Positions 3,399 through 41,972 are shown, numbered from the stretch's first letter. The stretch: DNA of 64,000 nucleotides from Candidatus Eiseniibacteriota bacterium (GCA_024276995.1 JAJRWB010000041.1:91015-155014), one strand, 5' to 3'. Made by a program: numbers and translations. The notes: a model not told the origin generated them from the sequence alone.

Positions 3399-4126
3399 CG
3401 CTCGTTCCCTTCTGTGAGCAATGGAGGAAGATCTGCCGCCGCCGGTTCATCGAGCAGCCACCATCCCCGGCGGGCGAGGCGCGCCGGCACTCTTTCCGTC
3501 GTCGTTTCGGGAGAGAGCACTTCGGCGACCTTATTCGCCTTGTTCTTCCCCCGGGCGAGAACGACCACTCTTCGGGCCGACCGGATCACCGGCGGCGTGA
3601 TGGTGAACCGCCATGGCGGGTCGGCATCGGTTTTCACCGCGACAAAACGCCGCTCCTTCTCGATTAGTGCCGGGGAACCGGGAAAGAGGGATGCCGTGTG
3701 ACCATCGGTCCCGATACCGAGGAGGAGAAGATCCACCGCGCCGGGAAGCTCGCGCCCGTAGGCCGCCGCCCTCTCGTTGCGATCGCCGTCTTCCGGAACA
3801 CCGTGCAGATTGCCGGGCGGGGCGGTTTTCCCGGGGAAGAGAGAGCGGCGGATCATCGCGTAGTTGCTCTCGGGATGGTCCCGTGGGACATCCCGTTCAT
3901 CGCTCAGAAAGAAGTCGGTTTCCTCCCATGGAAACGACCCGATCATCTCTCCATCCCGGAGGCGGCGGTAGACCGGTTCGGGTGTCGTTCCCCCGGAAAG
4001 GGCGATGAAACACCTGCCGCGCTCTCGAACGGCGGAGCGCGCCATGTCGGCCAACATATCCGCCGCGGTTCCGGCGAAGGCGTCGCCGGCGCACGAAACG
4101 ATAACACGGTTCCGCGCGTCGCTCAC
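3395..4126 (-). CDS. pgl: 6-phosphogluconolactonase
   Basis: Hydrolyses 6-phosphogluconolactone to 6-phosphogluconate, the step between Zwf and Gnd. The 243-aa product starts at a GTG that overlaps the zwf stop (GTGA). Longer in-frame upstream sequence is unlikely to be translated because it lies inside zwf. Family features are ALSGGTTPEPVYRRL (phosphate/sugar loop), FFLSDERDVPRDHPESNY and LLLGIGTDGHTASLFPG, whose His is the usual catalytic residue. It belongs to the NagB/SugP-isomerase fold and is the SOL/DevB-type lactonase. The 4-base overlaps at both ends imply translational coupling with its neighbours. Confidence 0.94.
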   Translation of the reverse strand: MSDARNRVIVSCAGDAFAGTAADMLADMARSAVRERGRCFIALSGGTTPEPVYRRLRDGEMIGSFPWEETDFFLSDERDVPRDHPESNYAMIRRSLFPGKTAPPGNLHGVPEDGDRNERAAAYGRELPGAVDLLLLGIGTDGHTASLFPGSPALIEKERRFVAVKTDADPPWRFTITPPVIRSARRVVVLARGKNKANKVAEVLSPETTTERVPARLARRGWWLLDEPAAADLPPLLTEGNER

Positions 4127-5673
4127 TTCAGCGCCCGCCAAATCCGGCCGTCGGCGCCGATCAACCGGTCCGCCTCGACCGGTCCGTCGCTCCCCGGCGC
4201 ATACGTGCACGGTCTTTCGGTACCCGATTCCCACGTGTCCAGGAGAGGCGTCACGAATTCCCAGCTTCTTTCCACTTCATCCTTTCGTGCGAAAAGCGTA
4301 GCGTCCCCCCTCATGCAGTCGAGGATCAGGCGCTCGTAGGCGTCGCCCACCCTCTGTTGAAACGTCTCGCTGTACGACATGTCCATCTTCACCGTTGCCA
4401 CCTTGATGTCGTCGCCCGGAATCTTCGACGCGAAGCAAAGGCAGATACCCTCGTCGGGCTGGATCCGGAGCACGAGAACATTCGGGTCGATCTGCCGGCA
4501 GACCCCTTCGTGGCCGAACAAGCAGAAGGGAATCCTCTGGAAATGGATCGCAACCTCGGTGACGCGGCTCGTCAGTTTCTTCCCGGCGCGAAGGTAGAAC
4601 GGAACTCCCTGCCACCGCCAGTTATCGATGAGCACCCGCAGCGCGGTGAACGTGGGCGTTCTCGAATCGCGGGCCACCCCGTCATTCTCCCGGTAGCCGT
4701 CGTACTGCCCGAACAAGACGGCCTTTCCCATATCGTCCGGCCAGAAGGGACGGAGCGAGCGGAGCACCTGGACTTTCTCGTCGCGAATCTCGTCCGCTTT
4801 GAACGACACGGGCGGTTCCATGGCGCACAGGGCGAGAACCTGCAGGAGGTGGTTCTGGATGATGTCGCGGAGGACGCCGGTGTTGTCGTAGAACGCCCCT
4901 CTCCCTTCGACACCGATCTCCTCCGCCGCGGTGATCTGCACGTGATCGATATACTTCCGGTTCCAGATCGGCTCGAAAATCGAATTGCCGAACCGGAAAG
5001 TAAGTATATTCTGCACCGTTTCCTTGCCGAGATAGTGATCGATGCGGAACGTCTGGTCCTCGCGCAGCACCCCACCGACGAGCCGATTCAATTCCTTCGC
5101 GCTCTCGAGATCGCGGCCGAACGGCTTTTCGATGATCACCCGCGACCACGGCCCCTCGCCGCGGCGGCCCGATCGGTGGAGCAGGTCGGCGTCGCTCAGG
5201 TTCCGAACGATCACCGGGAAGAGCCCGGGCGGTGTGGCGAGATAGAAGAGCCGGTTGCCGCCTGTCCCCTTCTCCCGCTCGAGCTCGGCGAGCGTCTCGC
5301 CGAGGGCTCGGTACGTATCGGCGTTGTCGAAATCGCCGCGCACATATTGAAAGCCTGAAACGAGGCACTTCCAGACATCGCCTTGCGCTTTCGTGCCCGA
5401 AAAGAGAGACACCTTTTCGCGGAGGCTGTTCGCGAGGCCGTCACCCGACAAGTCGCGCCGCCCCACGCCGATGAGGGGGAGGCAATCGGGGAGCGAGCCC
5501 TCCTTCTCGAGATGGTAGAGCGCGGGAATGAGCTTCCGTTCCGCCAGGTCTCCGGTGATTCCGAAGATGACCAGGGAGCACGGCTCGACTTTTCCGGCGG
5601 ACACCACAGGCGTGTGCGACGATGTGCGAAGCGTCGGATGGATCTTGCCGGGTGGCGTTCCGTCGGTTGTCAT
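4123..5673 (-). CDS. zwf: Glucose-6-phosphate 1-dehydrogenase
   Basis: Oxidises glucose 6-phosphate to 6-phosphogluconolactone with NAD(P)+, the entry and control point of the pentose phosphate pathway. The start chosen is ATG 5673 (516 aa) with GGAG ten bases upstream. An in-frame TTG at 5715 lies upstream of a likely -10 element (5704-5709) and is therefore rejected. Motifs are the nucleotide-binding FGITGDLAERKL, the active-site RIDHYLGKETVQN (catalytic-region His plus Lys) and FYDNTGVLRDIIQNHLLQV. It is the first gene of the zwf-pgl-gnd operon. Its length fits the bacterial family (about 480-520 aa). The short N-terminal extension of roughly 25 residues is not conserved family sequence as far as can be seen. 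Confidence 0.95.
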   Translation of the reverse strand: MTTDGTPPGKIHPTLRTSSHTPVVSAGKVEPCSLVIFGITGDLAERKLIPALYHLEKEGSLPDCLPLIGVGRRDLSGDGLANSLREKVSLFSGTKAQGDVWKCLVSGFQYVRGDFDNADTYRALGETLAELEREKGTGGNRLFYLATPPGLFPVIVRNLSDADLLHRSGRRGEGPWSRVIIEKPFGRDLESAKELNRLVGGVLREDQTFRIDHYLGKETVQNILTFRFGNSIFEPIWNRKYIDHVQITAAEEIGVEGRGAFYDNTGVLRDIIQNHLLQVLALCAMEPPVSFKADEIRDEKVQVLRSLRPFWPDDMGKAVLFGQYDGYRENDGVARDSRTPTFTALRVLIDNWRWQGVPFYLRAGKKLTSRVTEVAIHFQRIPFCLFGHEGVCRQIDPNVLVLRIQPDEGICLCFASKIPGDDIKVATVKMDMSYSETFQQRVGDAYERLILDCMRGDATLFARKDEVERSWEFVTPLLDTWESGTERPCTYAPGSDGPVEADRLIGADGRIWRALK

Positions 5674-5703
5674 CGGGCTGGAACTCCTTTCCTGTTCTTC
5701 TTG

Positions 5704-5709
5704 AGTATA
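5704..5709 (-). promoter_or_regulatory. Candidate -10 element of the zwf operon
   Basis: On the minus strand the hexamer reads TATACT, one mismatch from consensus. It lies about 30 bases upstream of the zwf ATG at 5673, giving a leader of about 25 bases. No convincing -35 hexamer is seen at 16-18 bases, so this is a weak call. Confidence 0.35.
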
Positions 5710-5867
5710 GCCCAATCGCCGCCGCGGATCACGGCGAGGCGACGTGTTGCGTCGCGCACCCTCCCCTGACTACCTTTACTCAGACGAGGCGGTTTCCCCC
5801 CTGCCCGTCTTCGCTCCCTCTCGGGGGCGATACCCGTTACAGGACACCTGATCGAGAGGAGACTCGA

Positions 5868-7013
5868 ATGACCCGTTCCTATATGGTTCGTATGTCTATA
5901 TTGATCGTCAGTTCTGTTTCTCTTCTCCTTGTCGCCGTCGGGTGCGGCGACGACGGAAACCCGGCCGGGCCGGGCGACGGTGGCGGCGACGCCGCCTTCA
6001 GGGATTTCTCGTTGACGCTGCGCGGCATGGATCCCCACGTGGGGCGGCTCCTCGTGCTGACCGTGGCGGGCGGCACGTCGGGCAAGAACGCCCGGACGGG
6101 TGGTGTGGAGGCCCGGTTCGTTCTCGACCCTCTTCCCGCGGCGGAGTATGGCCTCTTCGTGCCCGACGGAGTGCCCGAGGGGACTTTTGATCTCGACTTC
6201 TACGCCGACCTGAACGGCAGCGGTTCATACGACGCGCCGCCCATCGATCACGCGTGGAGGATCGCACTCCCGGCGAGCGGGAACGTTGCAGAGGAGTTCA
6301 CCCATAACACGACATTCACGGATATCGGCGCGACGCCGCCCGTGGAAGGGGGCGACTTCACGCTCGATCTCAGCGGGCTCGATCCCCACGTGGGACAGCT
6401 CTTCGAATTGAGGGTGATCGAAACGGAAAGCGGCGCCACGGTGGGACAGTACCGGCTCGGGGCGGTTCCGGCTGCGGCGATGACGATCACTATCCCCGGA
6501 ATCATCGCGGACGGCATGGAATACAGCGTCGACTTCTACGCCGACCTGAACGGGAGCGGCGGCTATGACGCTCCTCCCGTCGATCACGCCTGGCGCCTGG
6601 CCGGCGCCGGCACCTCTTCCGGGCTCGTCCTTTCGTTCAGCCATAGCACGGCATTCACCGATATCGGCTTCACCGAAGGCGGCGGGCCGATCGAGGAAAC
6701 TCCGGTGGCGACGTTCACCGAGATCCGGGATGAAATCTTGACGCCGAGCTGTGTCGATGCGGGCTGCCACCCGGGCGGAGGGGCGCCGATGTCCCTCGCC
6801 TCCGGGTCGGCATACGGTAATCTCGTCGACGTCGCCTCGGCGTACGGCATCGATCGCGTCGAGCCGGGGAATTCGGCGGCGAGCGCCCTCTATCTCAAAG
6901 TCGCCGGCGACGCGTCCACCGGGAGCCGGATGCCCCTAGGAAGAGCGGCGCTTTCGACCGACGATATCGACCGGATCGCGGCGTGGATCGACGCCGGCGC
7001 GAAAAACGACTGA
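5868..7013 (+). CDS. Lipoprotein with two repeated domains and a C-terminal cytochrome-c-like domain
   Basis: The protein has 381 aa. ATG 5868 follows a GAGAGGAG ribosome site. A hydrophobic signal ends in a lipobox-like VAVGC with Cys26, so it is probably lipid-anchored outside the inner membrane. Two copies of a domain of about 105 residues follow (about 46-155 and 163-267). Each begins DF(S/T)L.L.G(L/M)DPHVG, carries FYADLNGSG.YDAPP(I/V)DHAWR and ends FTDIG. The last 100 residues look like a class of cytochrome c common in envelope proteins of environmental bacteria: CVDAGCH (Cys295, Cys300, His301, a CX4CH spacing) and RMPLG with Met355 as possible distal haem ligand. The function of the repeats is unknown. 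It may be a surface electron carrier or sensor. Confidence 0.75.
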   Translation: MTRSYMVRMSILIVSSVSLLLVAVGCGDDGNPAGPGDGGGDAAFRDFSLTLRGMDPHVGRLLVLTVAGGTSGKNARTGGVEARFVLDPLPAAEYGLFVPDGVPEGTFDLDFYADLNGSGSYDAPPIDHAWRIALPASGNVAEEFTHNTTFTDIGATPPVEGGDFTLDLSGLDPHVGQLFELRVIETESGATVGQYRLGAVPAAAMTITIPGIIADGMEYSVDFYADLNGSGGYDAPPVDHAWRLAGAGTSSGLVLSFSHSTAFTDIGFTEGGGPIEETPVATFTEIRDEILTPSCVDAGCHPGGGAPMSLASGSAYGNLVDVASAYGIDRVEPGNSAASALYLKVAGDASTGSRMPLGRAALSTDDIDRIAAWIDAGAKND

Positions 7014-7045
7014 AGTTCCGCGCCGGCGCCGGCCCGATTCGCGGG

Positions 7046-8290
7046 CTATGTCGCGCGCAGGACGAACGATACGAGCGTCTTGTCGTCGCCTCCCATGTTG
7101 ATCGACATGGCGTACGGCCTCGCGTCGCCGATCTTCACCTGGCAGTCGAGCGCCTTGCCGGTGAGCTGCATCACCATGTCGCCCACCTGGCGGACGCCGG
7201 TGGCGCCGGTGGGATGGCCGAAGCCGATCAGACCGCCGGTGGCGTTCACGGGACACTCCCCGTCGAAGCGCGCCTTCCCGTCGAGCAGGTAGGGTGCGGC
7301 GCGTCCCGGTTCTGCGAGGCCGATCGCCTCGAGTGCGAGGAGGCCGGTGATGGTGAAGCAGTCGTGCACCTCGAGCAACCCGAGGTCGGACGGTTTCGCC
7401 CCCGCCATGGCGAGCGCTTTCGACGCGACCGCCGCGGTGGTATCGAGGCGTGCCGGATCTTCCGGGTCGCGGGCGAGATTCCCCTCGCACTGGGCGACGG
7501 CGGCGAACTCGGCGGCGTCGCTCTTCGCCACGCCGAGGTTCGCGAGACCCTCCTCGGATGCGAGGATCACGGCGGACGCGCCGTCGCTCACCTTGGAGCA
7601 GTCGAACACGTTGATATGTTCGAGAAACGCCTTCGCGTTCGGTTCGGTCATCGCCGTGGCGCGCGGATCGGGATCGGCGTTGTGGAACTCCTGGGCCTTC
7701 GGATTCCGCCTCGCGTTCTCGATCGCTTGGGCGTACCACTCGGCCATGGCGCGACGGGTGTCTTCCCTGCCGTACTTCTCATAGTACGCCCCCGCGCGCC
7801 GCGAGAATAGATCGGGGAAGAAGTAGACGTGCCCGTCCTTCCGCTGCCGGCTGTAATGTCCCGCGCCGGCGAGGATGTCGGCGCCGTACATCGCCTTCAC
7901 CGTGTTTTGCACTTCCACGCCTACCACGAGAACCGCGTCCGCCATATCGGAGAGAATCGCGTTCGCCGCGGCGATCACCGCGAGCCCTCCCGATCCGCAG
8001 GCACCCTCCACGCGCATACACGGCTTGTGGAGCAGCTCGCCGCACGCTTCGGGCAGAAGCGCGCCGAGATGGGCCTGCCGGTTGAACCGCGCCGCCATGA
8101 AGTTGCCGACGACCCCCTGGTCGAGGGCGCCGGGGTTCTTCACCTGGGCGACGGAATCTTTCGCCGCCTCGAGAATGTAGTGTTCGATTCCGGGGCGAGG
8201 CTTTTTCGGATGGAACTCCTTGCGACCCGGACCGAAGAACACCGTGTGGGCGGGTGCGCATCCGAATATCTTCTTACGCAGCTTTTTCAT
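7046..8290 (-). CDS. SCP2/archaeal-type thiolase (acyl-CoA acyltransferase)
   Basis: The protein has 414 aa. ATG 8290 is preceded by GGAGGTG five to six bases upstream. Thiolase fold: nucleophile region [20 protein letters not shown] in place of the classical NEAFA, and GGLIGFGHPTGATG with the conserved active-site His. The C-terminal CxG motif of classical thiolases is absent and reads INMGGDDKT, as in SCP-x/SCP2 thiolases and archaeal acetoacetyl-CoA thiolases. It would cleave or condense acyl-CoA thioesters in the cytoplasm. It lies 19 bases downstream of a 3-hydroxyacyl-CoA dehydrogenase on the same strand, so the two probably act in sequence in a beta-oxidation-like or reverse pathway. 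The substrate chain length cannot be read from the sequence. Confidence 0.85.
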   Translation of the reverse strand: MKKLRKKIFGCAPAHTVFFGPGRKEFHPKKPRPGIEHYILEAAKDSVAQVKNPGALDQGVVGNFMAARFNRQAHLGALLPEACGELLHKPCMRVEGACGSGGLAVIAAANAILSDMADAVLVVGVEVQNTVKAMYGADILAGAGHYSRQRKDGHVYFFPDLFSRRAGAYYEKYGREDTRRAMAEWYAQAIENARRNPKAQEFHNADPDPRATAMTEPNAKAFLEHINVFDCSKVSDGASAVILASEEGLANLGVAKSDAAEFAAVAQCEGNLARDPEDPARLDTTAAVASKALAMAGAKPSDLGLLEVHDCFTITGLLALEAIGLAEPGRAAPYLLDGKARFDGECPVNATGGLIGFGHPTGATGVRQVGDMVMQLTGKALDCQVKIGDARPYAMSINMGGDDKTLVSFVLRAT

Positions 8291-8309
8291 TTTCGTCACC
8301 TCCAGGATC

Positions 8310-9653
8310 TCACCCGGTGTATTCGTTGATCGGGCCGTACAGGTGGAAGAAGCCGTTGGTCAGAACGGCGTTCACGTCGCCGGCGCTGTTCGCCACGCCG
8401 TCTTTCACGAGCGCCTCGCCGATCGCCTTCGATGTCTTCAGGTACTCCATGGCGAGCTTCGCGCCCTCGCTCTCCGACACGCGCAGCGCGGAGAAGTGCG
8501 CCGCCAGCGCCTCGTCCTTCTTCCGGTCGCGGACGAGTGCCTTCCACGGGCGAAAGCCGTCCGGAAGCGCTCCGAGTTGTCTATCCGCCTCGCCGGTCCA
8601 CCCGTTCGGATCGAAGGCGACATAGTCGCCCCTCTCCGGATCGTACACCGCGACCGATCTCCCCTTTTCGTACCGCAGGATCCCGTCCTTTTGCGATCCA
8701 TTCGGGTTCTGCCCGCCGAGGATCTTCCTCTCCGCGAGAATGTCGATGAAATCACAGTGGAGTCCCCGATCGGGGAGGTACCGGTTCATCACCTCGAGGA
8801 TGCACCGGAACACGTCGACGCCGACGTAATCGATAAGCTGTAAGATTCCCATCGGCCGGACAAGCCAATCCTGGCTGACACGGTTCATTTTGTAGAGCGC
8901 GCCGGCCCACTCGCCGCCCTCGCGCAGCCTCTCCGCCGCGCCGATCGCGTGGAGCCCGTCGCGGATGAAATGACCGTTCCCGATGAAGCCGGCGATATCG
9001 TTCGCCGGGACCACCTTCTTGCCGAGGCGTTTCGCCAGCTCGAGGCCCGCTTCCTTCAGCTCAGGAAGCGTGGTATAGGTGGTGATCATCTCGAGCAACT
9101 TCTGCACCGCCGGCGGGTTGTAGAAGTGGAAGCCGACGATCCTGCCGTTCAGCTCGAGCTTCCGGTCGAGGCCCCCGATGGGGATCGACGACGTGTTCGT
9201 CATATACCACGCGTCGGGATCGACGTGTTCCCGCACACGACCGAGAAGATCGATCTTCAGGTCCTCGTCCTCGAACACCGCCTCGAACACGATCCTCGCG
9301 CCCGCGGCGCCGTTCAGATCGGTGGAAGGACGAAGGACGGACATCGCCTGGCCGACGAATTCCTCGATCATCTCGCCGTTCTCCACGAGATCGGCACGGT
9401 CGGCGAAGAGGACACGAAGCTCGCCGACGCTATTTTCCGCCATCTTGTGGACCTGGCTCCGGACATAGCCGAGGAGGCCGTCGAGCGCCTTCTCGCTCAC
9501 GTCGATCAGCGCAAGGCGGTAGACTTTCCCCTGCCCTTCGGGGGAGAGCTTCATCCGGGCGAGCTCTTTCGTGAGAAGAAGGGCGATACCGCTCCCCATC
9601 TTCCCCGCGGCGCCGATGACCGCCGCGTTTTCGAGTCTTTCCGACAGGTTCAT
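8310..9653 (-). CDS. 3-hydroxyacyl-CoA dehydrogenase family protein
   Basis: The protein has 447 aa. ATG 9653 follows GGGAGGG. The N-terminal Rossmann domain has AVIGAAGKMGSGIALLL near residues 10-26, and the variant G-A-A-G-K-M-G is unusual against the common GAGxMGxG. The catalytic His lies in VGFHFYNPPAVQKL, followed by VVPANDIAGFIGN of the 3HCDH N-terminal domain. The C-terminal half is dissimilar to the usual short 3HCDH C-domain and includes a 40-residue segment with YEKGRSVAVYDPERG. It is likely an NAD-dependent oxidoreductase of 3-hydroxyacyl-CoA or a related hydroxy-acyl thioester, co-transcribed with the downstream thiolase. No enoyl-CoA hydratase or acyl-CoA dehydrogenase gene lies nearby, so the exact pathway is open. 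Confidence 0.83.
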   Translation of the reverse strand: MNLSERLENAAVIGAAGKMGSGIALLLTKELARMKLSPEGQGKVYRLALIDVSEKALDGLLGYVRSQVHKMAENSVGELRVLFADRADLVENGEMIEEFVGQAMSVLRPSTDLNGAAGARIVFEAVFEDEDLKIDLLGRVREHVDPDAWYMTNTSSIPIGGLDRKLELNGRIVGFHFYNPPAVQKLLEMITTYTTLPELKEAGLELAKRLGKKVVPANDIAGFIGNGHFIRDGLHAIGAAERLREGGEWAGALYKMNRVSQDWLVRPMGILQLIDYVGVDVFRCILEVMNRYLPDRGLHCDFIDILAERKILGGQNPNGSQKDGILRYEKGRSVAVYDPERGDYVAFDPNGWTGEADRQLGALPDGFRPWKALVRDRKKDEALAAHFSALRVSESEGAKLAMEYLKTSKAIGEALVKDGVANSAGDVNAVLTNGFFHLYGPINEYTG

Positions 9654-33388: not shown

Positions 33389-33513
33389 GAGAAGTGTTTC
33401 CGGAAAGAGAGATTATTCTTCATGTCGACGGAAGCGGGCGCGTGGCCCGTCCGCGAAGTGACGGGCCGTTCATTAAGCACGTTACTTATGAGCTGGCCGG
33501 AGCCGCGTGGAGA

Positions 33514-33522
33514 TGGTATACT
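33514..33522 (+). promoter_or_regulatory. Extended -10 promoter for the M1 peptidase gene
   Basis: TGGTATACT forms an extended -10 element about 84 bases before ATG 33606. The -35 region (CTGGCC, 18 bases upstream) is poor, which is usual for extended -10 promoters. Confidence 0.45.
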
Positions 33523-33605
33523 GTACGGGTCGAATCCGTACTCCCCCGTTTTGTGTCCTCCCCGGTCGTCTCGTTGTGCGCAGATACAGCTATAGGAGAA
33601 ACAAT

Positions 33606-36350
33606 ATGAACCGGTGTCCCTCCGGAAAATCGCTCCACCCTGTCTCCAGGGTCCTCTTCGCCGCCTTCCTCGTGCTCATCCCGTGGGCCGTTTCCGGAGG
33701 CATCGCTCTCGCCAACGGACCGGAGGACGGCGCCCCGACGGCCGCCGAGATCGAATCGGCCCGAAAGAAGCAGTTTGCCATGGAGATGTTTCTCGGCGCC
33801 GACAAGCAGGCGGCGAGCCAGGCGGAGTACGATGTGCTCTTCTACGATCTCGACCTCACCATGGATCATGTCGCCCAGGTGGTGAGCGGCACGGTGTCGA
33901 TGCGCGCCACCCCCACCGGGAGCGCGATCGACACGGTGGATATCAACCTGCTCGACAACATGACGGTGTCGGCGGTCACCATGAACGGTTCGCCGGTGGC
34001 GTTCTCGCATTTTCTCGACCTGATCACCGTGACCCTCGACGCTTCGTACGCCGTGGGCGATACGTTCACCGTGGACGTGACGTACAGCGGCACGCCGAGC
34101 GCTTCTGCGGGCGCCTTCGGGTTCGACACCTACAGCGGCAAGCCGATGATCTGGTCGCTCAGCGAACCGTACGGTGCGCGTTCCTGGTGGCCGTGCAAGG
34201 ATTTGGCGGCGGACAAGCCCGACTCGATCGACTTTCGCATCACCGTGGACACGTCGCTCACCGTTGCATCGAACGGCCTGCTGAGAAGCACGTCCGTTTC
34301 CGGGAGCCAGAAGACGTGGTACTGGCACGAGTCGTACCCGATCGCCACCTACCTCGTCTCCGTGGCGATCCATCCGTACGTCGTCTTTTCCGACTGGTAT
34401 CATTACGGTCCCACCGACTCGATGGAGATCCGCAACTACGCGTTCGCGAACCATCTCTCCACCGTCCAGAACGAATCGGCGCCCACCGCGGATATGATCA
34501 CTCACTTCTCAGATATCTACGGGCAGTATCCCTTCGTGAACGAGAAATACGGCCATGCCGAGTTCCTCTGGGGTGGGGCGATGGAACACCAGACGATGAC
34601 GAGCATGGGGTTCTGGAACGAGTCGGTGGTGGCCCACGAGCTCGCCCACCAGTGGTTCGGCGACATGATCACGTGCAACACGTTCAACCATATCTGGCTG
34701 AACGAAGGGTTCGCCACGTACAGCGAAGCGCTCTGGGACGAGTTCCAGTACGGGCGAAGCACGTTCAAGAAGACGATGAAGTCGACACGCTATTTCGGGG
34801 CGGGAACGGTTTACGTGAGCGACCTGACCGACTGGAATCGTATTTTCGATTCCAACCTCTCGTACAACAAGGCGTCGTGGGTGCTCCACATGCTTCGCCA
34901 CGTGGTGGGGGACAGCACGTTCTTCAACATCCTCCAGACATACTATGCCGATCCCGCCGTGCAGTACGGTTCCGCCACGACGGCGCAGTTCCAGTCGATC
35001 TGCGAGTCGGTGTCGGGCATGGATCTGAATGCTTTCTTCCAGCAATGGATTTACGGCGAATACTACCCGATCTATTCGTACAGCTGGACCCCCACGCCCG
35101 CGTCCGGGGGTTACGACGTGGCGCTCACCATCGAGCAGAAGCAGACCAACCAGCTCTTCACCATGCCGATCGACGTCTACTTCCAGTTCGCGAGCGGGAA
35201 CACCACCCTCGTGGTACGTGATTCCCTCGCCACGCAGGATTTCACGCTCCATGTGAACAGCGAACCGACCGATGTGAGGCTCGACAAGGCGTTGTGGATC
35301 CTCAAGGCGGTGGAACGGGCGATCGTGAACCCCACGTTCGACCGCGGGATTCTCGTGGTGAACGGTGTCGACTGGAACGTCTATGGCAGCGAGATCTACA
35401 ACGCCTATGCCGACAGTGTCTTTTGGGGGAACAACCCGATCACCTTCTGGGACTGTTTCACAGCGCCGAGCGGCGGCTACCCGGCGAACCTTCCCGCTCC
35501 TCTCGGCACGGGAGGGGGAGTGCCTTCGGATACGCTGAAACAGTTCTCCACGGTCGTGTGGGTGGGGAACAATTATAACGGCGATCTTCTCTACTGGGTG
35601 AACACATCGATCCTCGATTATCTCGAGGCGGGCGGAAACGTGGTGCTCCTGAGCCGTCTGGGCCAGGATTTCATCTATTCGGGACTGACCGATTATCTCG
35701 GCATCACGTGGAACACCCCGGACAACCTGATCCTCGGCGACTACACCTCGACCTACACCGGGCTGGTGAGCCAGACGTTCACGGGGACGCAGAGCTTCGC
35801 CGACGTGTTCGACACTCTCTTCGCGACGGGCGAATCGGAAATGCTCTTCAAGGACACTTCGATCGGTACGGGGACGAAGGGCACCGGCGTGTGGCGCCGC
35901 CCCGCGGCGGGCGGGACGAACCGCGCCGACGGAGGGCGTTTCGTCTTTCTGAGCGGGCGTCCGTACAGGATGGATCACACCCAGCTCCGGTCGAACATGG
36001 AGTACATCCTGTCGAATATGCTGAACGAACCGTTCGACCCGACGGGCACGCCGGAAAGCCCCGCGCCGAAGAAGGTGTATGCACTCTCGCAGAACCAGCC
36101 GAATCCGTTCAACCCGATCACGAGCATCTCCTTCACGATTCCGGCGAAGGAAAGGGTGTCTTTGAATGTGTACTCCCCGTCGGGTCGGCTCGTGAAGACG
36201 CTGGTGAACAGCGTTCTCGATTCGGGAAGACATGGGGTTACGTGGAACGGCACGGATAACCGGGGCCGCGAAACATCGTCGGGCATCTACTTCTACAGGC
36301 TCGAGGCGGGCGAAAAGCGGATGACGAAGAAGATGGTGCTCTTGCGATAA
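33606..36350 (+). CDS. Secreted M1-family metallopeptidase with C-terminal FlgD-like sorting domain
   Basis: The protein has 914 aa. ATG 33606 has AGGAG seven bases upstream. A signal peptide ends near residue 37. The M1 aminopeptidase core shows GGAMEHQT (323-330, equivalent to the exopeptidase GAMEN) and HELAHQWFGD (His344, Glu345, His348) with downstream NEGFATYSE (Glu367) as third zinc ligand. Residues about 600-810 form an unrecognised domain with DRGILVVNGVDW and YLEAGGNVVLLSRLG, resembling a flavodoxin/GATase-like fold. The last 92 residues (823-914) are a FlgD/T9SS-type sorting domain: LSQNQPNPFNPIT, VYSPSGRLVKTL and GIYFYRLEAG. It is exported and probably retained at or released from the outer surface. 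This tail is the main lineage clue of the window. Confidence 0.92.
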   Translation: MNRCPSGKSLHPVSRVLFAAFLVLIPWAVSGGIALANGPEDGAPTAAEIESARKKQFAMEMFLGADKQAASQAEYDVLFYDLDLTMDHVAQVVSGTVSMRATPTGSAIDTVDINLLDNMTVSAVTMNGSPVAFSHFLDLITVTLDASYAVGDTFTVDVTYSGTPSASAGAFGFDTYSGKPMIWSLSEPYGARSWWPCKDLAADKPDSIDFRITVDTSLTVASNGLLRSTSVSGSQKTWYWHESYPIATYLVSVAIHPYVVFSDWYHYGPTDSMEIRNYAFANHLSTVQNESAPTADMITHFSDIYGQYPFVNEKYGHAEFLWGGAMEHQTMTSMGFWNESVVAHELAHQWFGDMITCNTFNHIWLNEGFATYSEALWDEFQYGRSTFKKTMKSTRYFGAGTVYVSDLTDWNRIFDSNLSYNKASWVLHMLRHVVGDSTFFNILQTYYADPAVQYGSATTAQFQSICESVSGMDLNAFFQQWIYGEYYPIYSYSWTPTPASGGYDVALTIEQKQTNQLFTMPIDVYFQFASGNTTLVVRDSLATQDFTLHVNSEPTDVRLDKALWILKAVERAIVNPTFDRGILVVNGVDWNVYGSEIYNAYADSVFWGNNPITFWDCFTAPSGGYPANLPAPLGTGGGVPSDTLKQFSTVVWVGNNYNGDLLYWVNTSILDYLEAGGNVVLLSRLGQDFIYSGLTDYLGITWNTPDNLILGDYTSTYTGLVSQTFTGTQSFADVFDTLFATGESEMLFKDTSIGTGTKGTGVWRRPAAGGTNRADGGRFVFLSGRPYRMDHTQLRSNMEYILSNMLNEPFDPTGTPESPAPKKVYALSQNQPNPFNPITSISFTIPAKERVSLNVYSPSGRLVKTLVNSVLDSGRHGVTWNGTDNRGRETSSGIYFYRLEAGEKRMTKKMVLLR

Positions 36351-36376: not shown

Positions 36377-38116
36377 TTATCCGTCCATGTGGACGACGCG
36401 GAAATACTTCAGTTCTTCGAGTTCTCCGGGAAGAGTTTTTTCGGCGCCGGAAGAAGCGATCGCGGCGAGCTTCGTCGCGATCGCTTCCGCTTCGGTGAGA
36501 TAGCCTTCATATTCCGCGCGACGGTCGGCGACGGTGGGTGAGGCCTCGCCTTCGGTACGGTTTCGAATCGCTTCGTCGATTCCCAGCGCGGGAGCCGGTA
36601 TCGCTCGGTCGGCGGCGTGGGACCACGCTCCCGTGGCGAGATCGAACCGGTAGAGCGGAAGGAAGAGAGGCCCTTTCGCCGCGAGAAACTCGACGGCCCG
36701 TACGATGAACTCCGCGTCGATTTCGTCCATCGTGTAGTGGAACCCGATGCGCACCCATCCCGGCTTGATCCCCTGGTACCCTTCGCGAATCTCGCTTCTG
36801 TATTCCTCGGAGAGCTTCGCGCCGATGTGGAGGAGGCAATGGCCGTAGGGACCGGCGCACGAGCAGCCCGCCCTCGACTGGATGCCGAAAAGATCGTTCA
36901 GGAGCCGCGTGACGAGCTTCGGGTGGAGGTATTTTTCGCCGTCGCGGATGTTGAACGAGAGGATGCCGATCTGTCGCTTGGGATCGGGGGCGCCGAGCAT
37001 CTCGATCGCCCCGTTCGCGCGGAAGCGCCGGATCGCCTCGCCCACGTATTTCTTCTCCCGCGTCTCGATCGTCTCCACGCCGATCGCCTCCTTGAGTTCC
37101 ACGGCGAGCGCCGCCTTCAGAAGCTGCAGCGTTCCCGGCGTGCCCGCCTTTTCCCGCGCCTCGATGTCGTCGGTGTAATCTTGCGATTCGGGGCCGACGT
37201 AGTCGACGGTGCCGCCCGACGGAAACGTGGGGGGGAGGTCGTCGCGGTAGACGCGGCGGTTGAAAAGGAGGACGCCGGTCGAGCCGGGGCCGCCGAGGAA
37301 CTTGTGGGGCGAGAAGAAGACGGCGTCGAAGAACGATTCATCGTCGCGGTTCATGTCGATCTCGACGTACGGGGCGCTGGCGGCGAAATCGAAACAGGCG
37401 AGCGCGCCGTGGCGGTGCAGGATTCGGGCCACGTCGTACACGGGCGTCTTGATACCGGTTACGTTCGAGGCGGCTGAGAATGTCCCGATCTTGAGTCGTC
37501 CGTCGAAGGCGTCGTCGGAGACCTTTCTCTCGAGGTCTTCGAGATCGATGCCGCCGTCGGCGGCGAGGGCGATCGAGTGCACCTCGGCGATCGATTCGCG
37601 CCATGAGATCTCGTTCGAGTGATGTTCATACGGTCCGACGAAAACGACCGGGCGGTTCCGGTGGATGAAGGCGAGAAAACCGGCCGGGTCGGACGAAGCG
37701 TTCTCCTTTCCGAACCGGTCGGCTTGTTCCTTCAGCCACGCCTTCGTCGCCGGCGGCATATAGATGCCGGCGATTTCTTGGAATCGCTTGATCGCCCCGG
37801 TGGCGCCGGTGCCGGTGGCGACGATCCGTGTCCGTTCATCGCCGTTCACCGTCCGCTTGATGATCCTTTCCGCCTGATGAAGCATCTCGGTGGTGCTCCG
37901 CCCGGTGACGTCGTCCTCGGTGTGGGTATTGGCGTAGCTGTCCTGGATCTTCATCAGGTACCGCTCGATGAACCGGACGTTCCTCCCCGAGGCGGTGTAG
38001 TCGGCGTACACCATCAGCCGCTCGCCGAACGGCGTGTGGAAGCGGAAGCCGCTCCCCACGATCTCGTCGCGGAGCGCATCGAGATCGATCGGGCGATTGT
38101 TGTCGAGACGGTTCAT
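36377..38116 (-). CDS. Class-V aminotransferase-fold PLP enzyme (cysteine desulfurase-like)
   Basis: The protein has 579 aa. ATG 38116 has GGAGGAAGG in front. Fold type I PLP enzyme: YADYTASGRN at the substrate end, RIVATGTGATGAIKRF (PLP phosphate), LACFDFAASAPYVEID (PLP-binding Asp) and FFSPHKFLGGPGSTGVL with the Schiff-base Lys. It is longer than ordinary cysteine desulfurases (about 400 aa). A C-terminal segment has SRAGCSCAGPYGHCLLHIG followed by a 150-residue extension. The conserved Cys cluster sits where desulfurases carry the persulfide Cys, so sulfur transfer or a lyase reaction is possible. The gene is divergent from the corrinoid methyltransferase operon and may or may not share control with it. 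Confidence 0.82.
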   Translation of the reverse strand: MNRLDNNRPIDLDALRDEIVGSGFRFHTPFGERLMVYADYTASGRNVRFIERYLMKIQDSYANTHTEDDVTGRSTTEMLHQAERIIKRTVNGDERTRIVATGTGATGAIKRFQEIAGIYMPPATKAWLKEQADRFGKENASSDPAGFLAFIHRNRPVVFVGPYEHHSNEISWRESIAEVHSIALAADGGIDLEDLERKVSDDAFDGRLKIGTFSAASNVTGIKTPVYDVARILHRHGALACFDFAASAPYVEIDMNRDDESFFDAVFFSPHKFLGGPGSTGVLLFNRRVYRDDLPPTFPSGGTVDYVGPESQDYTDDIEAREKAGTPGTLQLLKAALAVELKEAIGVETIETREKKYVGEAIRRFRANGAIEMLGAPDPKRQIGILSFNIRDGEKYLHPKLVTRLLNDLFGIQSRAGCSCAGPYGHCLLHIGAKLSEEYRSEIREGYQGIKPGWVRIGFHYTMDEIDAEFIVRAVEFLAAKGPLFLPLYRFDLATGAWSHAADRAIPAPALGIDEAIRNRTEGEASPTVADRRAEYEGYLTEAEAIATKLAAIASSGAEKTLPGELEELKYFRVVHMDG

Positions 38117-38142
38117 TGGCCTTCCTCCCCGGTGGCGCACGG

Positions 38143-38172
38143 TGCACATCGTATACCCTATCATGTTAGAAT
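38143..38172 (+). promoter_or_regulatory. Extended -10 promoter of the corrinoid methyltransferase operon
   Basis: TGCACA (38143-38148), an 18-base spacer, and TGTTAGAAT, whose TG-n-TAGAAT form is an extended -10 ending at 38172. Transcription would start near 38180, 40 bases before ATG 38220. No cobalamin or SAM riboswitch fits in so short a leader. Confidence 0.5.
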
Positions 38173-38219: not shown

Positions 38220-39680
38220 ATGAGACCGACTCTTCGATTTCTCGATGACACGCTCCTCGACCGTATCATCGCCGAAGCGCGGGAGCTGCTCGTGCGGCTC
38301 GGTGTGGAGATCCACGACGAGGGTATTCTCGACATGCTCGGCGAACACGGCGCCGCCGTCGATCGAGCCGCGAAGCGTGCCCGCATCGGCGGCGACATGA
38401 TCGATGCCGCGCTCGCCACCGTTCCTTCTTCCTTCAAGGTTTACGATGCGACCGGTGCGGAGTCGCTCGACCTCGGCGGCATGAACGTCCATTTCACGCC
38501 CGGTTCGGCGGCGATCCGTGTGCTCGATTACGAGAGCGGCGAGGCGCGCGAGCCGTCGACGGCGGATTGTATCCGCCACGCCCGCCTCGTGGGAAAGCTC
38601 GACCATATCGCCTCGCAGAGTACGGCGATCGTCGCCGCCGACGTGCCGGAGATCGTGTCCGACAGCTATAGGCTCTACCTCGGTCTGCTCCACTGCGACA
38701 AGCCGGTCGTGACGGGCGCATTTACCGTGGCCGCCTTCGACGTGATGAAGAAGATGCTCGTCGCCGTGCGTGGCTCGGAAGAGGCGTTGGCGGAAAAGCC
38801 GCTCTCCATCTTTTCCTGCTGCCCCACGTCGCCCCTCAAGTGGAGCGACGTGACGTCGCGCAACGTGGTCGACTGCGCGCGCGCCTCGATCCCGGTGGAA
38901 TTCATCGCCATGCCCCTCGCCGGGTTCCAGGCGCCGGTCACCCTCGTGGGCACGCTGATCCAGCATACGGCGGAGACGCTGAGCGGCGTCGTGATCGGCC
39001 AAGCGGCGAACCCGGGCTCGCCTGTGCTCTACGGCGGTTCGCCGGCGATCTTCGACGTACGCTACGAGACGACCCCGATGGGCGCGGTGGAAACGATGAT
39101 GATCGACTGCGCGTACAACGAGATCGGGAAGTCTCTCGGCATGCCGACGCAGGCGTACATCGCGCTCACCGACGCGAAACGGATCGACGCGCAGGCGGGG
39201 CAGGAGAGCGCCATGGGCGCCGTCCTCGCCTCGCTTGCGGGGATCAACAACATCTCGGGCCCGGGAATGATCGATTTCGAAAGTTGCCAGTCCCTCGAGA
39301 AACTGGTTCTCGACAACGAAACGTGCGGCATGATGTTCCGCATGATCCGCGGTATCGAACCGAGGGAGGATTTCCCTTCGCTTCCGAGGTTCGAGGAACT
39401 CCTCGCCGAAGGGCATCTGCTCATTTCGCCGCACACCCGCCGGCACTTGCGTGAAGAGCACTATTTCACCGGAGCGGTGATCGACAGGGCGAACCGTTCG
39501 CGCCGGCTCGAGGAGGGGGGACGCACTCTCACCGAGCGTGCCCACGAACAGGTGGAATCGCTTCTTGCCGAATCGACGCCGTCGTCGGTGCGCAGTTCGG
39601 CGCGCGCCGAACTGAAGTCGATCATGACGTTCGCCGCCTCGGCCGCCGGGATGGATCGGCTTCCGGAAGAGACGATGTGA
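38220..39680 (+). CDS. MttB-superfamily methyltransferase (non-pyrrolysine)
   Basis: The protein has 486 aa, with GGGGGG before ATG 38220. It belongs to the trimethylamine methyltransferase superfamily (TIM barrel): FLDDTLLDRIIAEARELLVRLG at the start, FTPGSAAIRV, CPTSPLKWSDV, GSPVLYGGSPAIFDVRYETT, and LASLAGINNISGPGMIDFES near the active site. The reading frame has no internal TAG, so unlike archaeal MttB it carries no pyrrolysine. It groups with the MtgB/MtpB/MtcB-type enzymes that demethylate quaternary amines such as glycine betaine, proline betaine or carnitine. It should pass a methyl group to Co(I) of the corrinoid protein encoded two genes downstream. The substrate is not readable from sequence. 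Confidence 0.88.
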   Translation: MRPTLRFLDDTLLDRIIAEARELLVRLGVEIHDEGILDMLGEHGAAVDRAAKRARIGGDMIDAALATVPSSFKVYDATGAESLDLGGMNVHFTPGSAAIRVLDYESGEAREPSTADCIRHARLVGKLDHIASQSTAIVAADVPEIVSDSYRLYLGLLHCDKPVVTGAFTVAAFDVMKKMLVAVRGSEEALAEKPLSIFSCCPTSPLKWSDVTSRNVVDCARASIPVEFIAMPLAGFQAPVTLVGTLIQHTAETLSGVVIGQAANPGSPVLYGGSPAIFDVRYETTPMGAVETMMIDCAYNEIGKSLGMPTQAYIALTDAKRIDAQAGQESAMGAVLASLAGINNISGPGMIDFESCQSLEKLVLDNETCGMMFRMIRGIEPREDFPSLPRFEELLAEGHLLISPHTRRHLREEHYFTGAVIDRANRSRRLEEGGRTLTERAHEQVESLLAESTPSSVRSSARAELKSIMTFAASAAGMDRLPEETM

Positions 39681-40438
39681 GGCGGCTGGTTCAATGGGAG
39701 GGCGCCGAGACACTCCCCGACCGGGATGTCGTGCTGAGATACCAGGGGATTTCGAAGGGGCGCGAGGTGCCGGAGCGGATCGAGCGGCTCTACGAGGAAG
39801 GGGGCGCTCTTTATCTCGACGCCGCTCGACCGCACGCTGTGGTGGAGACGATCGGCGTGGACCGGTTCGCAAAGGTGCACGAAGGGGAGGGGCGGAACTC
39901 CGCCGACTCGCCGTTGGCGCGGATCTTCCCGCGGGCGTCGCGACTCGAGCTTTTCGCCGCCACCCTCGGGAATGCGATCTGTGACGACATCGCCCGTCGT
40001 TTTCGCGAGGGTGACTACGCGACGGCGGCGATGCTCGACTCGTTCGCGTCGGCCGGCGCCGAGAAAATGGCGGCGCTTCTCGAAGAGGCGACGGAGGGAA
40101 GCGTGGCAGGGAGGAACGGGCGGGGGGCGGCCGCAGCCGTCACGCTTGCGTACAGCCCCGGCTACTGCGGCTGGCACGTGAGCGGGCAGGCGAAACTTTT
40201 CGCCGCGCTTCGCCCGGCGGAAGCGGGCGTGGCGCTCAAGGAGGGGAGCTTCCTGATGGAGCCGCTCAAGTCGGTCTCGGGCGTTCTCGTCACGGGCGCA
40301 CCCGCCCTTCACCGCTTCGAGAACGATTTTCCCTTCTGTAGCGAGTGCGAGGGGAAGAGCTGCCTGATCCGGATGCGTGACATCGAAAGGAACCTCGCCC
40401 GGCATGAACCGCCGGGCGCGGCGGGAGGAGAGCGATGA
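39677..40438 (+). CDS. Methionine-synthase activation-domain-like protein (corrinoid reactivation)
   Basis: The protein has 253 aa. GTG 39677 overlaps the upstream stop (GTGA). The C-terminal half resembles the SAM-binding activation domain of cobalamin-dependent methionine synthase: VTLAYSPGYCGWHVSGQAKL and the Cys-containing end DFPFCSECEGKSCLIRM. The N-terminal half has RYQGISKGREVPERIERL, seen in stand-alone activation proteins. In MetH this domain uses SAM and an electron donor to rescue oxidised Co(II) cobalamin. Here it is a separate polypeptide placed between the methyltransferase and corrinoid genes, so it probably reactivates that corrinoid protein. CSEC/C may ligate a metal. No RamA-type Fe-S activase is seen in the window. 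Confidence 0.8.
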   Translation: MRRLVQWEGAETLPDRDVVLRYQGISKGREVPERIERLYEEGGALYLDAARPHAVVETIGVDRFAKVHEGEGRNSADSPLARIFPRASRLELFAATLGNAICDDIARRFREGDYATAAMLDSFASAGAEKMAALLEEATEGSVAGRNGRGAAAAVTLAYSPGYCGWHVSGQAKLFAALRPAEAGVALKEGSFLMEPLKSVSGVLVTGAPALHRFENDFPFCSECEGKSCLIRMRDIERNLARHEPPGAAGGER

Positions 40439-41079
40439 ATCAGCTCGAGCGGATCGCCGCCGCCCTGGAAAAGGGCGAAGTCGAAACGGTGATCGAATTG
40501 ACGAACGAGGCGCTCGGCGCGGGGCTCGACCCGGGAAGAATCGTCGACGACGGCTTGATCGCGGGGATGACCGTGGTGGGCGGGCTCTTCCGGAAACACG
40601 AGATCTTTCTCCCCGACGTGCTGATGGCGGCGAAGGCGATGAACGGAGCGATGGAGATCGTGAAGCCGCTCCTCACCGGCGGCGGAGGGCGCGGTCTCGG
40701 CCGCGTGGTGATCGGCACGATCGAAGGCGACCTGCACGACATCGGGAAGAACCTCGTCGGCGTCATGCTGAAAGGGGCCGGCTTCGACGTGATCGATCTG
40801 GGCAGCGACGTGTCACCCGGTCGCTTCGTCGATACGGCGGTCGAGAGCGGCGCTTCGGTGATCGGCATGTCCGCCCTCCTCACCACGACGATGGCGAACA
40901 TGGAAAAAGCGGTGCGCCTCGTGAAGGAACGCCGCCTTGACGAGAAGATCCGCGTGATCGTCGGGGGGGCGCCGCTGTCGGAGGAGTTCGCCGCGCGGAT
41001 CGGTGCCGACGCCTACGGCTTCGACGCGTCGAGCGCCGTGGAGCGCGTGGCGAAGCTCGTCGGCGAAGCGACACGATGA
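40435..41079 (+). CDS. Corrinoid (cobalamin-binding) methyl-carrier protein
   Basis: The protein has 214 aa. Its ATG overlaps the preceding TGA (ATGA). The order is an N-terminal helical cap (about 1-85; ALGAGLDPGRIVDDGLIAGM and FLPDVLMAAKAM) and a Rossmann B12-binding domain with the base-off motif GDLHDIGKN. Asp99-x-His101-x-x-Gly104 supplies the lower Co ligand His101. GSDVSPGRFV and IGMSALLTTTM complete the B12 site. The size and layout match MtbC/MttC/MtgC. It should carry CH3-Co(III) between the MttB-family enzyme and the homocysteine methyltransferase encoded directly downstream. Confidence 0.93.
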   Translation: MNQLERIAAALEKGEVETVIELTNEALGAGLDPGRIVDDGLIAGMTVVGGLFRKHEIFLPDVLMAAKAMNGAMEIVKPLLTGGGGRGLGRVVIGTIEGDLHDIGKNLVGVMLKGAGFDVIDLGSDVSPGRFVDTAVESGASVIGMSALLTTTMANMEKAVRLVKERRLDEKIRVIVGGAPLSEEFAARIGADAYGFDASSAVERVAKLVGEATR

Positions 41080-41972
41080 AACCGTTCCGCGCGCGCCTCG
41101 CCGCCGGCGATCTCCTCGTTTCCGACGGGGCGATGGGGACGATGATCCTCTCGAAGGGTTTCGATACTCTCGCGACTCTTGAATCGCTCAACCTGGAACA
41201 CCCGGATATTCTCGAAGAGATCGCCGCCGAGTACATCGCCGCGGGCGCCGATATCGTGGAGACGAACACCTTCGGCGCGTCGCCGATGAAGCTCGCCGGC
41301 TACGGGCTGGCGGACGAGGCGGAAGCGATCAACCGCGCGGCCGTGAAGGCGGCGCGCTGTGCGGCCAACCGCGCGGGCGGCCGCTACGTCGCCGGCAGCG
41401 TCGGCCCGACGGGAAAGCTTCTCGAGCCTTACGGCGATGGAAAACCATCGGCCTTGCGCGCATCGTTCGCCGAGCAGATCGCCGTTCTCGCTGCGGAGGG
41501 CGTCGATGCGGTCTTCATCGAGACGATGACCGATCTCGAAGAAGCGCTCCTCGCCCTCGGCGCGGCCCGCGAAGTCGCCCCGTCGATCCCCGTCGCCGTG
41601 ACGCTCACCTTCGACGAGACCCCCCGCGGTTTCTTCACCCTCATGGGACAGCCGCTCGAACGCGCGGCGGGCGAACTCAAGCACTCGGGCGCCGACCTCG
41701 TCGGCACGAACTGCGGCAACGGCATCGAAACGATGATCCGCGCCACCGCCGCCCTGCGCGCCGCGGGCACCCTTCCGATTCTCGTGCAGTCGAACGCCGG
41801 CCTTCCCGAGGCGGCGGAACGCGGCGTCGTCTACCCAGAGACGCCCGATTTCTTTCGGCGGAAGGGCGAAGAGCTGATCACCTCAGGGGCGAACATCATC
41901 GGCGGCTGCTGCGGCACGACACCGGAACATATTCGCGCCCTTTGCGCGGCTGGCGAAAGGCGACTATCTTGA
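41076..41972 (+). CDS. Homocysteine S-methyltransferase (MetH N-terminal-module type)
   Basis: The protein has 298 aa. It overlaps the corrinoid gene by ATGA. It has a betaine-homocysteine methyltransferase/MetH N-domain fold: LVSDGAMGTMIL, VETNTFGASP, VAGSVGPTGKL, GTNCGNG (Cys213) and IIGGCCGTTPEHI (Cys278, Cys279). The three Cys are the zinc ligands that activate homocysteine thiolate. As a stand-alone protein it lacks its own B12 and folate domains, so the upstream corrinoid protein is the natural methyl donor. It closes the four-gene cassette, and the predicted end product is methionine. Confidence 0.92.
   Translation: MKPFRARLAAGDLLVSDGAMGTMILSKGFDTLATLESLNLEHPDILEEIAAEYIAAGADIVETNTFGASPMKLAGYGLADEAEAINRAAVKAARCAANRAGGRYVAGSVGPTGKLLEPYGDGKPSALRASFAEQIAVLAAEGVDAVFIETMTDLEEALLALGAAREVAPSIPVAVTLTFDETPRGFFTLMGQPLERAAGELKHSGADLVGTNCGNGIETMIRATAALRAAGTLPILVQSNAGLPEAAERGVVYPETPDFFRRKGEELITSGANIIGGCCGTTPEHIRALCAAGERRLS

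Follow-up and report, generated by a model that had tools for sequence, protein, structure and literature searches.

What reaction is served by four tightly coupled genes that place an MttB-type methyltransferase beside what appear to be the separated pieces of the methionine synthase MetH? The question is raised by an operon at positions 38220-41972 of a 64,000-nucleotide stretch of DNA from a Candidatus Eiseniibacteriota bacterium (GCA_024276995.1 JAJRWB010000041.1:91015-155014), the whole of which is termed the window. Its four plus-strand genes, coupled by three 4-base overlaps (GTGA, ATGA and ATGA), encode an MttB-like protein, a stand-alone MetH-type activation protein, a corrinoid carrier and a homocysteine S-methyltransferase, which are abbreviated in locus order as MTTB, ACT, CORR and HMT. 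The evidence is computational throughout and comprises sequence comparison, predicted structures and comparative genomics. Gene content, coupling, predicted folds, key residues, conservation of the cassette and its patterns of co-occurrence and replacement lead us to hold, with moderate confidence, that the operon constitutes a split, corrinoid-dependent and folate-independent methionine synthase supplied by a non-folate methyl donor.

Distribution of the cassette and of other methionine synthases

The main evidence is comparative and comes from genomes in which the cassette stands alone. Among the 53 cassette genomes tallied for MetH, MetE, MTHFR and pterin proteins, ten (G003, G060, G065, G066, G073, G077, G083, G092, G094 and G108) contain no detectable MetH, MetE, MTHFR or pterin protein other than FolP. 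These ten span several phyla and include two single-contig chromosomes (G065 and G083). One of them, G003, belongs to the window's own family and is 100% complete with 1% contamination; its one PF02574 protein is that of the cassette, FolP is its sole pterin protein, and profile searches revealed neither MTHFR nor MetE nor MetH. Because none of these proteins was detected in ten cassette genomes, the corrinoid-bound methyl group would be passed to homocysteine and need not derive from methyl-folate. Homocysteine as the acceptor is accordingly the part of the proposal that comparative genomics favours with good confidence, and the earlier note on this DNA, which had suggested this acceptor together with a bypass of methyl-folate, gains support from the same ten genomes. 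The further question it posed, whether metH, metE and methyl-folate genes are missing from carriers of the cassette, is answered in the affirmative for these ten and in the negative for the roughly 34 of 53 cassette genomes that keep a MetH-like frame. G069 was removed from the MTHFR-less set, since its HMT-MTHFR frame runs off the end of a contig, and G061 (1.1 Mb) was left out as too incomplete. G065 and G083, both WOR-3 chromosomes, each encode a further PF02574 protein, which is divergent and has a GGCCGT motif close to its C-terminus (L126 of G083, minus strand, 1912-2829; L124 and L125 of G065).

The cassette itself is confirmed to be more than chance or a local accident. An alignment of the activation protein was scanned against 84,980 species genomes and returned 370 relatives, the best 80 of which were kept for locus analysis; these derive mostly from uncultured phyla of many groups and from metagenome-assembled genomes (MAGs), labelled as Cloacimonadota, WOR-3, Zixiibacteriota, Neomarinimicrobiota, Aminicenantes, Acidobacteria, Gemmatimonadota, Fermentibacteria, Eisenbacteria, Phycisphaerae, Bacteroidetes and others. 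The search for the same four-gene order, proposed in the earlier note, recovered the full MTTB-ACT-CORR-HMT order in 59 of the 80 loci, each of which had been retrieved independently. Two further loci have the first two genes swapped, with ACT in front, most of the remainder end at contig edges, and four Aminicenantes loci contain MTTB-ACT only. Among the four proteins, mean pairwise identity is highest for the MttB-like protein (0.68), followed by the carrier (0.61), the HMT (0.57) and the activation protein (0.44). The divergence of the four proteins is correlated (Mantel r 0.67-0.77 versus a permuted maximum of 0.21), part of which reflects shared species history. The plasmids of PLSDB gave no match to the activation protein.

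Incomplete versions were also encountered. The activation protein and HMT occur with no MTTB or carrier adjoining in L018 (G012, 7315-8960) and L020 (G030, about 6064-7638), the latter with a protein that is UroD-like by eye upstream, while L026 (G007, 5154-8471) holds the same pair with MTTB and no carrier.

Several observations weigh against the proposed methionine synthase. Since about 34 of the 53 cassette genomes have a MetH-like frame and the host keeps an intact metH, many carriers do not depend on the cassette alone for a methionine synthase. In the host, a complete metH with S-methyl_trans, Pterin_bind, cap, B12-binding and Met_synt_B12 domains in one frame stands beside an HMT-MTHFR fusion. 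The earlier note had named, as what would overturn it, an intact folate-dependent metH coupled with a failed homocysteine-methylation assay; the genomic half of that pair is thus present in the host. Rfam searches of the window and of 44 other loci detected no SAM, SAH or cobalamin riboswitch beside the operon, and across the cassette loci no conserved neighbour gene hints at the donor. Finally, the gene-absence calls are based on profile searches of MAGs, and the two single-contig chromosomes are partly masked.

Host genome and competing explanations

The host genome (3.76 Mb, 81 contigs, 96% complete) contains a single MTTB gene, that of the operon, and two B12-binding_2 domains, one in the operon carrier and the other in MetH. 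Pterin_bind matches are likewise two in number, in MetH and on contig C71, and the latter is read as FolP because of its score of 281 bits. Profile searches of this genome returned no RamA-type activase (RACo_C_ter), no MetE (PF01717) and no MtgA/MtvA-type pterin protein. This agrees with two proposals of the earlier note, namely that a MetH activation domain takes the place of a RamA-type activase and that the usual MtgA/MtvA-type folate step is absent. Because there is no other MTTB, the sole other carrier lies inside MetH, no pterin methyltransferase exists besides MetH and the FolP-like protein, and RamA is lacking, the operon HMT appears to be the only dedicated acceptor for the carrier; because an intact metH and an MTHFR fusion are present, the operon would provide an additional methionine route in the host. 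HMT-MTHFR frames of 600-690 aa are frequent among cassette genomes, and in L023 (G000:C36:49000-58000, minus strand, 5803-7638) such a fusion lies directly upstream of metH.

The presence of MetH in many hosts would also suit a catabolic or protective demethylation, in which homocysteine is a convenient acceptor and methionine a salvaged by-product, comparable to the role of betaine-homocysteine methyltransferase (BHMT) in betaine breakdown. Most characterised MttB-superfamily enzymes are indeed catabolic (PMC12478193, PMC6855144). This explanation is nevertheless considered unlikely: the host genome contains one MTTB rather than several, a single MttB type is very strongly conserved across phyla (57-68% identity), no common transport or degradation genes adjoin the cassette, and the cassette would become indispensable for methionine in those hosts from which MetH, MetE and MTHFR have been lost.

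A second alternative, to which we assign a rather low probability, regards the operon as a split MetH fed by methyl-tetrahydrofolate, either through an MttB-like barrel that has turned to folate binding or through an outside folate domain, from MetH or a stand-alone protein, that loads the carrier. The MttB and MetH folate barrels share a common TIM-barrel fold, with weak Foldseek matches of the MttB-like model to the latter, MTHFR is present in 40 of the 54 genomes searched for it, and the pterin protein MtgD of Ruegeria works in both directions with its carrier (PMC12478193). A further case is found in the window's family, where G001, G004 and G005 possess MetH with no cassette seen with the activation-protein query, and G000 possesses both. 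G002 carries the cassette and an HMT-MTHFR fusion, and the syntenic place of metH, beside NDP-sugar genes, is occupied by a stand-alone folate-binding domain of about 300 residues (L123, G002:C30:271000-278000, minus strand, 2620-3549). That locus, where the folate domain stands beside the HMT-MTHFR fusion, lacks the homocysteine, cobalamin and activation domains, a C-terminal half of MetH elsewhere in G002 not having been searched for. It is counted in favour of the main reading, the cassette seeming to provide the remaining MetH modules, and also of a folate-fed carrier. Against the latter stand the ten cassette genomes with no detectable MTHFR and no pterin protein except FolP, and the MttB-like protein matches MTTB, not Pterin_bind. 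Methyl-tetrahydrofolate is a possible donor in genomes that retain MTHFR.

Since the substrates of PF02574 proteins include several thiols and selenols, an acceptor other than homocysteine can be envisaged. Such an acceptor, as proposed for the mlp clusters in which a corrinoid protein and an activase are paired with thiol methyltransferases for methyl-selenide recycling or methionine salvage (PMC10418091), is highly improbable here, given that the HMT is nearest to MetH homocysteine domains and that, in several genomes devoid of another methionine synthase, no other PF02574 protein accompanies it.

Operon proteins, methyl donor and reactivation

In the folate-independent methionine synthase that we favour, the MttB-like subunit would demethylate a specific small donor and load the methyl group onto cob(I)alamin on the corrinoid carrier, and the HMT would pass it on from the carrier to zinc-bound homocysteine to yield methionine. 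The stand-alone activation protein would take over the task of RamA by converting inactive cob(II)alamin back to its active form. The cassette would work beside a normal MetH in the host and would have replaced MetH in several relatives. The features on which this scheme is built are compiled in Table 1.

Table 1. Features of the operon, in window coordinates
Feature	Position	Strand	Details
MttB-like protein, a non-pyrrolysine MttB-superfamily (COG5598) methyltransferase	38220-39680	+	486 aa; ATG start; PF06253, 241 bits, E 1.8e-71
Stand-alone MetH-type corrinoid activation protein	39677-40438	+	253 aa; GTG start; PF02965 (Met_synt_B12), 23.1 bits
C-terminal tail of the activation protein: His212, Cys221-x2-Cys224-x4-Cys229-x2-Arg232	40310-40372	+	possible metal or Fe-S site
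Corrinoid (B12) carrier of the MtbC/MttC/MtgC type	40435-41079	+	214 aa; ATG start; PF02607 and PF02310
Asp99-x-His101-x-x-Gly104 cobalt-ligand motif of the carrier	40729-40746	+	from sequence
Homocysteine S-methyltransferase, zinc TIM barrel; proposed acceptor subunit	41076-41972	+	298 aa; ATG start; PF02574, 245 bits, E 2.5e-72
HMT zinc ligands Cys213, Cys278 and Cys279	41712-41912	+	from sequence

The coupled genes, the DxHxxG motif, the three zinc cysteines and the lack of pyrrolysine described in the earlier note were all borne out by the sequence, by Pfam and by ortholog conservation. The carrier, which contains a PF02607 cap and a PF02310 domain, scores 200.3 bits with TIGR02370, slightly below the cut-off of 215.3, and its cobalt-ligand motif is at least 97% conserved among the 72 orthologs. 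The three zinc ligands of the HMT are conserved to at least 97% in 63 orthologs. Its best relative in the PDB is the homocysteine domain of Thermotoga MetH (1q7m, E 3.4e-46), with BHMT behind at 1e-20, and a corrinoid carrier accompanies it in nearly all complete loci. Pfam gave no match to Pterin_bind, the folate-binding module of canonical MetH, in any of the four operon proteins, and PF01717, the catalytic domain of the core MetE family, was likewise absent from them.

The AlphaFold2 model of the MttB-like protein (pLDDT 90.5) superposes well on MtgB (9yce, TM 0.91) and MttB (7xcl, TM 0.90) in Foldseek, with weak matches to MetH folate domains; its sequence identity to MtgB is 25%. A pyrrolysine enzyme was ruled out, as no in-frame amber codon occurs at the pyrrolysine position, which is Leu316 here and Leu, Met or Phe across the 73 orthologs. 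The PYLIS_3 matches reported by Rfam fall within the mttB-like gene and are put down to coding similarity. At least 97% conservation was observed at 140 of the 486 positions. For MtgB, a glycine-betaine pocket formed by Tyr94, Asn199, Arg309, His345 and Phe353 has been proposed on the basis of docking (PMC6855144). The equivalents in the cassette protein are Ser96, Cys201, Gln311, Ser346 and Glu354, each of which is kept in 67-73 of the 73 orthologs, and the first four in 69-73. Because the pocket differs, glycine betaine bound in the MtgB manner was set aside as the obvious donor, and the betaine-like quaternary amine named in the earlier note finds no support as stated. Judged from sequence, the strongly conserved and distinct pocket suggests one common donor other than glycine betaine held as in MtgB. 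The donor is probably a methylated amine.

Some neighbouring genes recur. An APC-type permease, recognised by eye, lies directly downstream of the HMT in L046, L106 and L084, which represent three lineages, and its substrate might be the donor or an amino acid taken up by the cell; a few other loci have ABC or MFS transporter genes next to the operon. A class V aminotransferase gene (window 36377-38164, minus strand) is divergent to the operon, and relatives of it flank the cassette in L017, L019, L063 and L104. Positions 33507-36350 of the window encode an M1-family peptidase whose C-terminal tail is of the sorting type (FlgD_ig and a weak Por_Secre_tail match). In L100, one SAM-I/IV match was detected by Rfam about 5.7 kb from the cassette.

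The Met_synt_B12 score of the activation protein falls below the Pfam curated cut-off of 25 bits. Its model (pLDDT 93.5), however, matches TM0269 of Thermotoga maritima (1j6r) with a Z-score of 20.4 and an rmsd of 2.2 over 191 residues, followed by other MetH activation domains (Z 15-17, with about 16 for those of E. coli and Thermus), and then by the next group at about 6, so that by its predicted structure the second gene product is a MetH activation domain fold. The alignment to TM0269 covers residues 1-207, and the cysteine tail lies beyond it. SPGYCGW, Cys221, Cys224, Cys229 and Arg232 are found in 84 of 84 orthologs and His212 in 82; the three tail cysteines are present in more distant relatives too. 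The position of the arginine in the TM0269 RISPGY motif, which we take to be that of the AdoMet (S-adenosylmethionine)-binding Arg1134 of E. coli MetH, is Ala158 here; it is Arg in 34 of the 84 orthologs and mostly Ala, Ser, Gly, Leu or Pro in the others. These residues hint that the tail might be a metal or Fe-S site able to receive electrons, and that the dependence on AdoMet might have been changed or lost. In some cassette genomes the MetH frame is about 790 aa long, which leaves no room for an activation domain (L129 of G071, and similar frames in G079, G099, G103 and G104), and the cassette activation protein may serve such short MetH proteins as well.

The broadest form of the proposal, which we advance tentatively, is that the cassette represents a widespread kind of folate-independent methionine synthase that has gone unrecognised. 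It would use one specific donor, would have taken the place of MetH, MetE and MTHFR in parts of several uncultured phyla, and would contain a MetH-type reactivation protein, altered by a conserved metal-binding tail, that may work without AdoMet. For some uncultured bacteria no known methionine synthase is apparent, and a prediction would class them as methionine auxotrophs; in some genomes the operon is the sole candidate for such an enzyme, and if it does serve as one, these predictions change. It would also give an MttB-type enzyme a biosynthetic role tied directly to methionine without folate, and the activation protein might offer corrinoid proteins a further means of staying active, in addition to MetH with AdoMet and RamA with ATP.

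Comparison with known systems

The cassette is a new combination of known modules, and the literature searched, which covered few subscription papers and no bioRxiv, yielded no published description of the four genes together. Thermotoga maritima offers a free-standing activation protein of the same fold, TM0269, which accompanies its MetH (TM0268). The aligned part of TM0269 is without the C-terminal CxxCx4C tail of the cassette protein, whereas the arginine of its RISPGY motif is variable in the cassette family; moreover, TM0268 uses methyl-tetrahydrofolate. BHMT likewise brings together a methylated amine and homocysteine in principle, but it is a single protein without a corrinoid, and the cassette HMT is nearer to MetH.

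The core methionine synthases MesA, MesB, MesC and MesD similarly work without methyl-folate, and MesB and MesC are predicted to take the methyl group from corrinoid proteins; they are, however, of the MetE type (PF01717), while the cassette pairs a MetH-type barrel (PF02574) with a carrier, a donor enzyme and an activase of its own (PMC7857596). The MtgB-MtgC-MtgA systems of Desulfitobacterium and Methanolobus also combine a non-pyrrolysine MttB protein with a cognate MtgC-type carrier, and deliver the methyl group to folate or coenzyme M rather than to homocysteine, the acceptor proposed here (PMC6855144, PMC12478193). A close parallel may be drawn with MtgBCDE of Ruegeria pomeroyi and the split methionine synthase of Phaeobacter inhibens, in which a separate MttB-type enzyme, carrier and homocysteine methyltransferase join amine demethylation to methionine (PMC12478193, PMC5764234), the Ruegeria proteins demonstrating that an MttB-type system and methionine synthesis are able to use one corrinoid carrier (PMC12478193). 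In those bacteria, the methyl group travels via tetrahydrofolate with the aid of MtgD, reactivation is achieved by RamA and DUF1638, and the genes are scattered (PMC12478193, PMC5764234), whereas the cassette comprises no pterin subunit and no RamA, contains a MetH-type activation protein instead, and is held together as one conserved four-gene operon.

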